Assembly: GCA_029262315.1 (NCBI GenBank)
Contig: JAJCZP010000140.1
Coordinates: 1-33,835 of the forward strand
DNA length: 33,835 nucleotides
Source: Deltaproteobacteria bacterium
GTDB lineage: Bacteria > Desulfobacterota > Binatia > UTPRO1
Direction: 5' to 3'
The notes under the pieces are model-generated. The model saw only the letters and a program-made list of their open reading frames with translations. It made no database searches and was not told where the DNA came from. Shown piece after piece: positions 24,358-27,275 of this stretch; positions within the stretch are counted from its first letter, which is position 1; each line of letters opens with the position of its first letter. Both the position numbers and the translations under genes were made by a program.

Positions 24358-24459
24358 GATCCACTCGAGCCAACTCGCGGCACAGGCGCGAGGCGTCTCT
24401 CGATCTACAGGATGAGATCCGGGGCTGCGCGCACGCAGACCAGGCGGGGAGGACCGATC

Positions 24460-25611
24460 TCAAGCGCCGAACAGCGCGCGGACCTTCCGAGCCAGCTTCG
24501 TCCAGATGAAGTCGATGGTCGTCACGCGCGCTTCGGGCTCGCCCGGAAGATCCATCTTATCGTAGTAGCGGCCCTCGCCCTCTCGGAGCTCCTTGGTCTT
24601 GCGGATCCACTGGCGGAGCGCGTACCCCGTACCGATGTGGGTCCACGCCTGACGATGGTAGTTCCAATTGTCAGGCGACAGCCGCTGCGCCTCGGCAAAG
24701 TAACGCTGCGCCTGCTCCGTCTCGCCCTGCGCTTGGAAGTAGAGCCCGAGCTTGAAGGTAGGATCGGCAAGCGCGGTCTCCTCCGACACCGGCTTCAAAC
24801 GGGCACGCACCTCGTCGGGCGACCAGGCATAGGCGCTCTCCGCCCCGCGCTCGACCCAATCTTTGGTGGCATCGGCGAACGCGGTACTCCCGAAGTCCAC
24901 CGAGAAGATGCCTGCATTGATCTGGTGGGCGCCAGCGTACGCCCCCTCGTTGATGCGCACGATGCGCCCCTGCTCGTCGATCCACGCGGCCGACGGCACG
25001 TTCACCCATCCAAAGAGCGTGCTGATCTTATGGGTCTCGTCGGTGACGCAGCGAAACGTCGGCGAGGCCTTGTCGAAACACGTCCCCGCCGCCCCCTCTC
25101 CCTGCGAGTCCTGCGCCACGCTGATGATCTCGAAGTTGCGATTCCCGAGAGAGGTATAGAGCTCCTGCCACACGGGCAGGTCGAGTCGGCATCCTCACCA
25201 GGAAGCCCAGGTCACGACGAGGACCTTCTTCCCCCGGAGATCCGACAGACGAAACGTCTCGCCACGGCGGTCGGTAACCTCGAAGTCGGGAGCCATCCCC
25301 GATTCGAGCGTGGCACGGCGCGTCTCCGGAACCATGCCGAAGCTCCAGACGCCGTCGGCGGCGACGTACTGCTGACCGAGCCTGTCGGCAAAGCTCGAGT
25401 ATTTGAGCCACGCACCATCGTCTCGCGTCCGTACCAATTCGGTGTTCTGGTCGCCAAGGAGCGGGACACAGAGGTCGCCGCGACACACCCCTTCTGGCCT
25501 GAGCTCCCAGCGCGTAGCCTGCTCGAGCTGATCGGTACGGATCCAGAGGTCGTCGTGCTCCCCCGGGATGGACGCAATCTCAGTCGTGTCGTCGTTCGCG
25601 AGAACAATCAT
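24460..25611 (-). CDS. Redoxin selenoprotein with in-frame UGA (Sec139) and TPR-like tail
   Basis: Two open frames in the same phase (25195-25611 and 24460-25173) are separated only by one UGA at 25195-25197 and seven sense codons. Read through, they give one 383-residue protein. The N-terminal domain (1-100) is not recognised. A thioredoxin/AhpC-TSA fold follows from about 105: MAPDFEVTDRRGETFRLSDL, then VLVVTWASW, then the UGA as residue 139, then GCRLDLPVWQELY. Sec139 thus takes the place of the nucleophilic Cys, with C141 as a partner in a U-G-C motif. The fold continues with IISVAQD, NVPSAAWIDEQGRIVRINEG and ends near 235. A TPR-like helix pair (about 290-325) follows. The probable role is thiol or peroxide reduction. 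A SECIS-like hairpin follows the UGA. The start ATG 25611 is favoured, with a weak AAGGGG upstream. A nonsense mutation in a Cys gene is the alternative. Confidence 0.8.
25164..25180 (-). promoter_or_regulatory. Candidate bacterial SECIS hairpin
   Basis: In the mRNA, CCUGCC and GGCAGG form a perfect 6-bp stem around the loop CGUGU. The stem begins 15 nt and the loop 21 nt after the UGA. G is the second loop base. Bacterial SECIS elements, as known from fdhF and from bSECIS surveys, lie in the coding region just past the UGA, with a short apical loop carrying an early G. Extension of the stem below these six pairs is poor. Confidence 0.65.
25195..25197 (-). other. In-frame UGA, proposed selenocysteine codon
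   Basis: UGA between UGG (Trp) and GGA-UGC (Gly-Cys) in the redoxin gene. It occupies the position where related proteins have the reactive Cys. UGC or UGU to UGA is also a single-base change, so a nonsense mutation is the alternative reading. Confidence 0.75.
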
Positions 25612-25817
25612 GGCTCGGCCCCTTGCGGCATCGAGTAGCCGCAATCGTGTGTTCTGTACAGTGGCGCTCGGCGCCGGAGCTCTTGGACAGCGCCGTGCCA
25701 CTCGTGTCGAATCATCTCCATCCAGCGCTTGTCAACGGCGCCGTGCGATGTAGAAGACACACACCGATTGCTACCGAGTCAGACGACGGTAATTCGCAGA
25801 CCGCGAGGGGACACATC

Positions 25818-26240
25818 ATGGAGAACAAGGATCTAGTAGTATCGCTCAACCGCATGCTCTCTCAGGAGCACGCCTGCGCCATTCGCTACGCGACACACGC
25901 GGCCGTAGTGGCTGGACCGTACGCCGAAGTGGTCGCGACGCGACTGAAAGAGATAGCGACCGACGAGGTTCTGCACGCGGAAAAGTTGCGCGGCCGCATC
26001 CTGGCCCTCGGGGGAGTCCCCACTATGGACGTGCGGGCCGAGGATCTGAAACCCGCGTCCACCCTTGAGGATATCCTCGAGGTGAACATTGCCGAGGAAG
26101 AGGATGCGATCCGCTCCTACACGGCAATTCTCGATCAGCTCCCGCTCAGCAACGTCATCCTGTTCCAGACGATCCAGGAAATCATCCGGGATGAGCAGGA
26201 GCATCTAGAAGAGCTCGAGGCGCTGCGCCTCCCTAAATAG
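25818..26240 (+). CDS. Ferritin-like (bacterioferritin-type) di-iron protein
   Basis: A 140-residue four-helix protein from ATG 25818, preceded by GAGGGG about 8 nt upstream. The frame extends to 25623 without support. The six di-iron ligands of the ferritin-like fold are in place: E17 (SQEHACAIRY), E50 and H53 (DEVLHAEKL), E94 (AEEEDAIRSY), E126 and H129 (DEQEHLEEL). It lacks the heme-binding Met of true bacterioferritin at the usual place as far as I can see, so bacterioferritin-like is the safer name. The likely role is iron storage or peroxide-consuming iron oxidation. It is divergent from the selenoprotein gene (206 bp between starts) and convergent with oxyR. Confidence 0.85.
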   Translation: MENKDLVVSLNRMLSQEHACAIRYATHAAVVAGPYAEVVATRLKEIATDEVLHAEKLRGRILALGGVPTMDVRAEDLKPASTLEDILEVNIAEEEDAIRSYTAILDQLPLSNVILFQTIQEIIRDEQEHLEELEALRLPK

Positions 26241-26291: not shown

Positions 26292-27275
26292 CTAGTTGGG
26301 CTTCTTCTTTCCCGGGGGGTTGGCACGGATCGTCGAGCGACTACGTGGCTCCGCCTTGTCGTGCGCCGTGAACGTAGATGCCGCGACCTTCGCGATCGCC
26401 TGGAGCGCATCTACGACCGGGGATCCTCCACGCCACGCGAGGACGACCGTTCGGTGCGGAACAGGCCGAGAAAACTCGCGAATCGCCAATAGGTCGGCAC
26501 GGTTCTCGACCTCGACCGCGCAGCGCGGCAACAGCGTAATACCGGTTCCGGCTGACACCATCTGGGCCAAGGTCCCCATGCTCGTCGCCCGGAATCCCAG
26601 TTCCTCGGCGCCCGTCGCGGCGCAGAGATCGAGCGCTTGATCGCGAAAACAGTGACCGTCCTCCAGAAGGAGAACGGATCTATCCCGCAGCGTCTCGAGC
26701 GGAACCCGCCGCTGCGCACGACCCAGCTCGTGCCCTTTGGCAGCGGCGAGCACGAAATGGTCGCGGCCCACGACCGCATGCTCGAGGTCGTGAAGATCGG
26801 ACTCGAGCGCGACGAGCGCGGCATCGAGCTCACCGGAGCGGACCTGCTCGACCAGGGCGCCGGTCTTGTCCTCCCGCCAATGAAGGGTGAGCCGGGGGAA
26901 CTCCTTGCGCAGGGCCGGATCGAGCGCCGGCAGAAGATAGGGGCCGATGGTGGGAATGACCCCCACGCGAAGGATCCCGGCCAGCGGATCGAGATACCGC
27001 AAGGCCGCCTCCCGGAGACCTTCAGTCTCATGGAGCACGCGCCGGGCGCGCTCCACCAAGTCCGCTCCCGCCGGAGTGAGAAGCACGCGCCGCCGGTCGC
27101 GCTCGAAAAGAATCACCTGCAGCGCCGATTCCAGCTCTCCGATCTGTGCGCTCAATGACGGCTGCGAGACCCCACAGAGATCCGCAGCCCGCCGAAAACT
27201 CTTCACCTCGGCGATGGCCACAGCGTACTGGAGCTGGCGCAAGGTCACGGGATGAATCCCGAACTTCGTCACCAT
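26292..27275 (-). CDS. oxyR: OxyR peroxide-sensing LysR-type regulator
   Basis: A 327-residue LysR-family protein. The N-terminal winged helix (about 10-70) reads LRQLQYAVAIAEVKSFRRAA, GVSQPSLSAQIGELE and FERDRRRVLLTPAG. The effector domain holds the OxyR hallmark LLLEDGHCFRDQALDLC, with C209 and C218 nine residues apart like C199 and C208 of Escherichia coli OxyR. Peroxide oxidises these to a disulfide that switches the regulator on. The ATG at 27275 has AGGA 7 nt upstream. A GTG at 27248 would give an N-terminus closer to other family members (MTLRQLQY). A basic, Pro-rich tail (RSRSTIRANPPGKKKPN) extends past the usual end. A four-part OxyR-type site overlaps the start codon. Confidence 0.92.
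   Translation of the reverse strand: MVTKFGIHPVTLRQLQYAVAIAEVKSFRRAADLCGVSQPSLSAQIGELESALQVILFERDRRRVLLTPAGADLVERARRVLHETEGLREAALRYLDPLAGILRVGVIPTIGPYLLPALDPALRKEFPRLTLHWREDKTGALVEQVRSGELDAALVALESDLHDLEHAVVGRDHFVLAAAKGHELGRAQRRVPLETLRDRSVLLLEDGHCFRDQALDLCAATGAEELGFRATSMGTLAQMVSAGTGITLLPRCAVEVENRADLLAIREFSRPVPHRTVVLAWRGGSPVVDALQAIAKVAASTFTAHDKAEPRSRSTIRANPPGKKKPN

Follow-up and report, generated by a model that had tools for sequence, protein, structure and literature searches.

Here, we report a gene on the minus strand of the window (the whole 33,835-nucleotide stretch of DNA analyzed) that very probably encodes a selenoprotein. Its frame is open through codon 138, is interrupted by a UGA at codon 139, and continues for 244 sense codons to the stop. 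The features of the reading frame are as follows.

24460..25611, minus strand: coding sequence of the predicted 383-residue UGC selenoprotein, with the ATG at 25611 and the stop codon at 24460-24462
25195..25197, minus strand: in-frame UGA, codon 139, putative selenocysteine (Sec); UGA in 29 of 30 fetched loci, Cys in the other
25619..25624, minus strand: AAGGGG, a possible Shine-Dalgarno sequence, read from the sequence 7 nt before the ATG

The original prediction described two open frames in the same phase, split by one UGA between WASW and GCRLDLP, with 244 residues beyond it, and all of this was confirmed; the read-through product has 383 residues and carries W-A-S-W-U-G-C-R-L-D-L-P. Many relatives likewise have an ATG about as far ahead of the UGA. 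Homology continues on both sides of the UGA, the best Pfam match being the redoxin domain AhpC-TSA (PF00578; 59.2 bits against a cut-off of 26; residues 106 to 218). Because homology crosses the UGA and the same codon is UGA in 29 of 30 loci, the arrangement goes beyond chance. An annotation that reads the UGA as a stop would truncate the gene at its catalytic residue.

That the UGA is nonetheless a true stop, closing a 138-residue N-terminal protein ahead of a separately started redoxin fragment, would be compatible with the ATG codons that this gene and some relatives have 20 to 46 codons before the UGA; since the redoxin domain spans the UGA, so that a stop would cut it at the catalytic residue, and invariant Cys/Sec positions are found both before and after the UGA, we consider this extremely unlikely. 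A 408-amino-acid open frame on the plus strand (24412-25638) runs antisense across the whole gene; it had no Pfam match at an E value of 0.001 and is likely a G+C-rich antisense shadow.

Selenocysteine and cysteine forms in relatives

A codon-neutral search covered 98 genomes (the gene's own, 5 of the same family, and 92 of the same class) and gave matches in 33, with 33 match rows holding one TGA; 29 of these rows had loci and were read, and 4 were left out. TGA occupied the same codon, in an ASW-U-GC setting, in 29 of the 30 fetched loci (own included). The remaining locus, in genome G012, has Cys at the site, and that genome gave no SelA match and no tRNA-Sec match. The UGA gene is present in 31 of the searched genomes (own included); SelA was found in 28 of these and a tRNA-Sec match in 24, leaving 3 without the former and 7 without the latter. 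Two genomes (G030 and G023) each hold two UGA-bearing matches to the gene, on different contigs.

Six peptide patterns, run against named genomes, recovered 50 relatives, of which 3 have TGA at the site and 47 have TGC or TGT. Of the 50 loci, 44 could be reached only via a pattern that holds the site Cys, so that Cys there comes by selection and is not independent; the 6 found via a peptide away from the site divide into 3 with TGA and 3 with TGC. The three UGA-bearing named genomes belong to other groups. An alignment of homologues across the UGA at residue 139, proposed with the original prediction, thus found Sec or Cys in relatives; as in the UGC family of the literature, the in-frame UGA forms U-G-C and is aligned with Cys in other homologues.

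These data bear on the reading that the codon was originally Cys and that the UGA is a sequencing error or true nonsense mutation, leaving a misread gene or pseudogene. Cys-form relatives exist, as it would require, and it would fit the lack of a tRNA-Sec in the gene's own assembly; against it stand the identical-codon UGA in 29 of 30 loci and in three named genomes of other groups, a silent-site excess in UGA genes that Cys genes do not share, and selA, selB, and selD at full length (both described below). The conserved UGA largely refutes it, and we rate it as highly improbable.

A tree was built from 67 full-length proteins (67 of 79 rows; 12 were dropped for having no clear start). On this tree, which comes from a short search with SH-aLRT support only, Sec and Cys forms interleave with 7 changes, at least 6 of them forced by supported branches. 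Of the rows in the tree and in the invariance count given below, the 31 UGA rows were found without the site motif, through which most of the 36 Cys rows were chosen.

Within the gene's own family, only its own genome (G000) of six has SelA and the UGC gene; the five others gave no SelA, tRNA-Sec match, or UGC gene at the limits used. The Sec trait is therefore patchy within the family, through either loss or transfer. Among named relatives of the gene, the closest (L024) comes from a differently labeled group with another base composition; for this reason, and because only one genome of six has the trait, acquisition of the gene by transfer is possible.

Hairpin downstream of the UGA

25164..25180, minus strand: bSECIS hairpin with a perfect 6-bp stem (CCUGCC/GGCAGG) and loop CGUGU, assigned from silent-site constraint and published bSECIS constraints

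The first base of the hairpin is the 15th past the UGA, 20 nt separate the UGA from the loop, and the isolated 17-nt element has a folding energy of −9.3 kcal/mol. Passages of PMC13188914 give the bSECIS constraints as a loop of 3 to 9 nt, an upper stem of 4 to 16 bp, a G in the first two loop positions, 16 to 37 nt from UGA to loop, and a minimum free energy at or below −7.5. All are satisfied here (5-nt loop, 6 bp, G second, 20 nt, −9.3 kcal/mol), so the claim of a 6-bp CGUGU hairpin 15 nt past the UGA with bSECIS geometry held.

Silent sites were compared with a null drawn from each gene's own codon usage, the genes counted being related and not independent trials. A perfect 5-bp stem was present in 31 of 32 UGA genes, against 9.9 (standard deviation [SD], 2.5) expected. 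None of the 115 codon columns is more biased than that of the stem Leu codon, which was CTG in 31 of 31 (10.3 expected); the stem Gln codon was CAG in 32 of 32 (22.8 expected). The exception to the stem is L024, with 1 of 5 pairs, where an alternative hairpin can be drawn by eye. Cys genes had the stem in 9 of 47 (7.4 expected; SD, 1.9), which is no excess, in a set where only 17 of the 47 have residues that allow it. The hairpin is under silent-site selection in UGA genes.

Folding energy was rejected as evidence: in stability, the 45-nt stretch after the UGA did not stand out from shuffled versions of itself (z = 0.34; 121 of 200 shuffles were as stable or more so). Because single-sequence folding energy proves nothing, the case for the hairpin rests on the comparison. 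Covariation gives no support either, since the 13 hairpins aligned (of 32) were too constant in sequence and held no compensatory base changes.

Selenocysteine machinery

Of the bacterial Sec-decoding trait, SelA, SelB, and SelD are encoded in the gene's own genome (5.9 Mb in 298 contigs; 99.96% complete), at 541.5, 357.1, and 306.2 bits, respectively, all above cut-off. The genes selA and selB are adjacent, SelB carries its two winged-helix families, and SelD shares one frame with a Pyr_redox_2 domain, a fusion resembling the Ndh-SelD fusions reported in passages of PMC2398784. Composition of the window, of 30 kb of contig C145, and of contig C79, which include the selA/selB and selD stretches, fits the rest of the genome as represented by pieces from earlier searches rather than a random sample; misbinning of contigs, considered as a possibility, was rejected on this match.

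Scoring of 150 of 861 candidates with the Rfam model revealed no tRNA-Sec in the 298-contig assembly, and the eight loci fetched from its matches hold ordinary tRNAs. Nor was one found in the assembly with combined anticodon-loop and T-loop patterns or with anticodon arm patterns, the pattern searches being followed by ARAGORN; none lay near selA, selB, or selD, and Rfam gave no match on the parts of the contigs that hold selA/selB and selD (E values up to 1) or on the window at gathering scores. The original prediction had placed SelA, SelB, SelD, and tRNA-Sec outside the window: the three protein genes were located, and the tRNA was not found in the searches of the assembly.

Across the genomes searched, tRNA-Sec was found in 70 of 98, and 8 of 76 SelA-positive genomes, own included, had no tRNA-Sec match, in a search with the stricter filters used over 40 genomes, which can lose weak matches. 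Because these 8 genomes likewise have SelA without a match, an assembly gap is the simplest reading of the missing tRNA; the organism's tRNA-Sec might also be divergent and unrecognized by the models used. In genome G097, about 3 kb separates two tRNA-Sec matches (C18:23069-23160 and 25930-26021).

The missing tRNA would also suit readthrough of the UGA, or its reassignment to a residue other than Sec by a near-cognate or unusual tRNA. Alignment of the UGA with Cys in Cys-form relatives, the presence of SelA, SelB, and SelD, and a SECIS-like hairpin under silent-site selection all argue for Sec instead, and we judge readthrough or reassignment very unlikely.

A second redoxin with an in-frame UGA lies elsewhere in the same genome (L108; G000:C116:53963-54151, minus strand). 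Its motif is GHW-U-PYC, and the hairpin after its UGA (loop AGUUA on an 8-bp stem, with 16 nt between UGA and loop) is similar in geometry to the one described above; this redoxin is probably a selenoprotein as well, of a Prx-like kind.

Predicted protein and neighboring genes

The protein was divided as follows.

25297..25611, minus strand: N-terminal domain, residues 1 to 105; no Pfam family and no confident PDB match
24841..25299, minus strand: ResA/TlpA-type thioredoxin-fold domain, about residues 105 to 257, from sequence and fold comparison
24580..24819, minus strand: helical TPR-like tail, about residues 265 to 344; TPR_2 below cut-off, helices in the model
25189..25191, minus strand: Cys141, partner of Sec139 in U-x-C; Cys in 67 of 67 full-length rows
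25483..25485, minus strand: Cys43 of the N-terminal domain; invariant in 67 of 67 rows and also in alignments A2 and A3
25468..25470, minus strand: Cys48 of the N-terminal domain; invariant in 67 of 67 rows and also in alignments A2 and A3

The predicted structure is confident (mean pLDDT, 90.5), and ResA (1st9_A) aligns with it at a Z score of 17.9 and 2.2 Å over 136 residues. ResA-type proteins gave the best alignment by sequence and by fold, and ResA was the second NCBIfam match. Sec or Cys at residue 139 and Cys at 141 were invariant in 67 of 67 full-length rows, most of the Cys-form rows having been chosen via the motif. U-G-C is one residue shorter than the C-x-x-C of aligned relatives, and the protein accordingly lacks a C-x-x-C active site. 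The TPR-like tail of the original prediction is weakly supported: the model has helices at residues 277 to 344, and a single TPR_2 unit scored 19.7 bits, under its cut-off of 27.

Across 39 rows, the N-terminal domain matched no Pfam family, the best E value being 0.011, in one row; it also had no Foldseek match at an E value of 0.001 or better. The best VIA-align row for it, 5h3k (Z score, 6.3; 4.3 Å; 95 residues), may mean nothing and was rejected as a fold match. The domain has an invariant C-x4-C and a well predicted fold. As no signal peptide is apparent by eye, the product is probably cytoplasmic.

Divergent from the selenoprotein gene is a ferritin-like gene (25818-26240, plus strand; PF00210, 60.3 bits against 24.5), which scored 35.5 bits with the bacterioferritin model (cut-off, 125.55). 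Beyond it lies an OxyR-like LysR regulator (26292-27275, minus strand; 274 bits with the OxyR model, cut-off 329). These neighbors hint at an oxidative-stress context. When neighborhoods were clustered (flanking frames of at least 90 residues, in flanks mostly of 1.5 to 3 kb), the ferritin-like/OxyR-like context was absent among the recurrent neighbors listed, and the listed clusters of at least 3 loci held no neighbor common to distant groups, with only Nocardioides-wide and small sets.

Peroxiredoxins usually carry the motif PxxxTxxC. We think it rather unlikely, within a selenoprotein reading, that the enzyme is chiefly a peroxiredoxin-like peroxidase instead of a thiol-disulfide reductase: the best Pfam match is AhpC-TSA, the adjoining ferritin-like gene and OxyR-like regulator would suit a peroxidase, and peroxiredoxin Q folds also align with the model (Z score, about 15), set against the better ResA-type alignments and the ResA match in NCBIfam, a motif that is U-x-C, and a sequence in which PxxxTxxC is not seen.

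Proposed function

Taken together, the gene very probably encodes a selenoprotein with SelB-dependent insertion of Sec at UGA 139, a ResA/TlpA-type thiol oxidoreductase with a U-G-C site. A Sec-dependent redoxin with a U-G-C site, as originally predicted, is supported by UGA conservation, replacement by Cys, the SECIS signal, and selA, selB, and selD. We infer actual Sec incorporation, a catalytic cycle, a cysteine relay, and an oxidative-stress role, as follows. SelB, directed by the hairpin just past UGA 139, would place Sec there rather than allow termination. The product would be a ResA/TlpA-type thiol oxidoreductase in which the shortened U-G-C replaces C-x-x-C. After attack by Sec139 on a disulfide (or peroxide) substrate, Cys141 would resolve the Sec139 intermediate as a selenenylsulfide. 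Electrons may next enter or leave via the Cys43/Cys48 dithiol of the N-terminal domain, and the adjoining ferritin-like gene and OxyR-like regulator suggest a role in oxidative-stress defense.

In a more tentative extension, the protein could be a three-part selenoenzyme in which Sec139-Cys141 exchanges electrons with Cys43/Cys48 through an in-chain relay, perhaps in an organism whose tRNA-Sec goes unseen by the models. The cited passages of the selenoprotein literature do not describe an in-chain relay between a Sec-Cys pair and a dithiol. The points worth following are the invariant second cysteine pair, which yields a concrete mechanistic hypothesis, and the unclassified N-terminal domain. 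The family is well suited to studying the contribution of selenium, since a single tree holds at least 6 supported Sec/Cys exchanges and the silent-site signal at the SECIS is clean.

Comparison with known families

The gene belongs to a UGC-containing selenoprotein family already listed since 2008. Passages of PMC2398784 count 46 Sec and 855 Cys sequences of Prx-like (UGC-containing) proteins in the GOS survey (2008), and the family is tabulated again in passages of PMC9312934 (2022) and PMC13188914 (2026); the passages cited from these three sources give no cellular function for it. As described there, Prx-like (UGC-containing) proteins and UGC-containing TlpA disulfide reductase selenoproteins combine pfam00578 or cd02966 with a UGC Sec motif, as does the product reported here; its N-terminal domain, Cys43/Cys48 pair, and helical tail find no mention in the cited passages on the UGC family.

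The best NCBIfam match was NF041054, WAxxUGC_long (ResA-like WAxxUGC motif-containing protein; E value, 1.5e-86; residues 23 to 328), whose members have the same WASW-U/C-GC motif and which was matched by all 37 rows of alignment A2 (gene product included) at an E value of 1e-10 or better. Neither that name nor the accession was found in the literature searched. At 290.9 bits, under the curated cut-off of 300, the gene product is a close relative of this equivalog and is not filed as a member.

With the ResA/TlpA thiol-disulfide oxidoreductases, the product has in common the thioredoxin fold of residues 105 to 257; it differs from them in having U-x-C rather than C-x-x-C and extra domains on both sides. 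Although not filed there, it probably works like a ResA/TlpA CxxC oxidoreductase.
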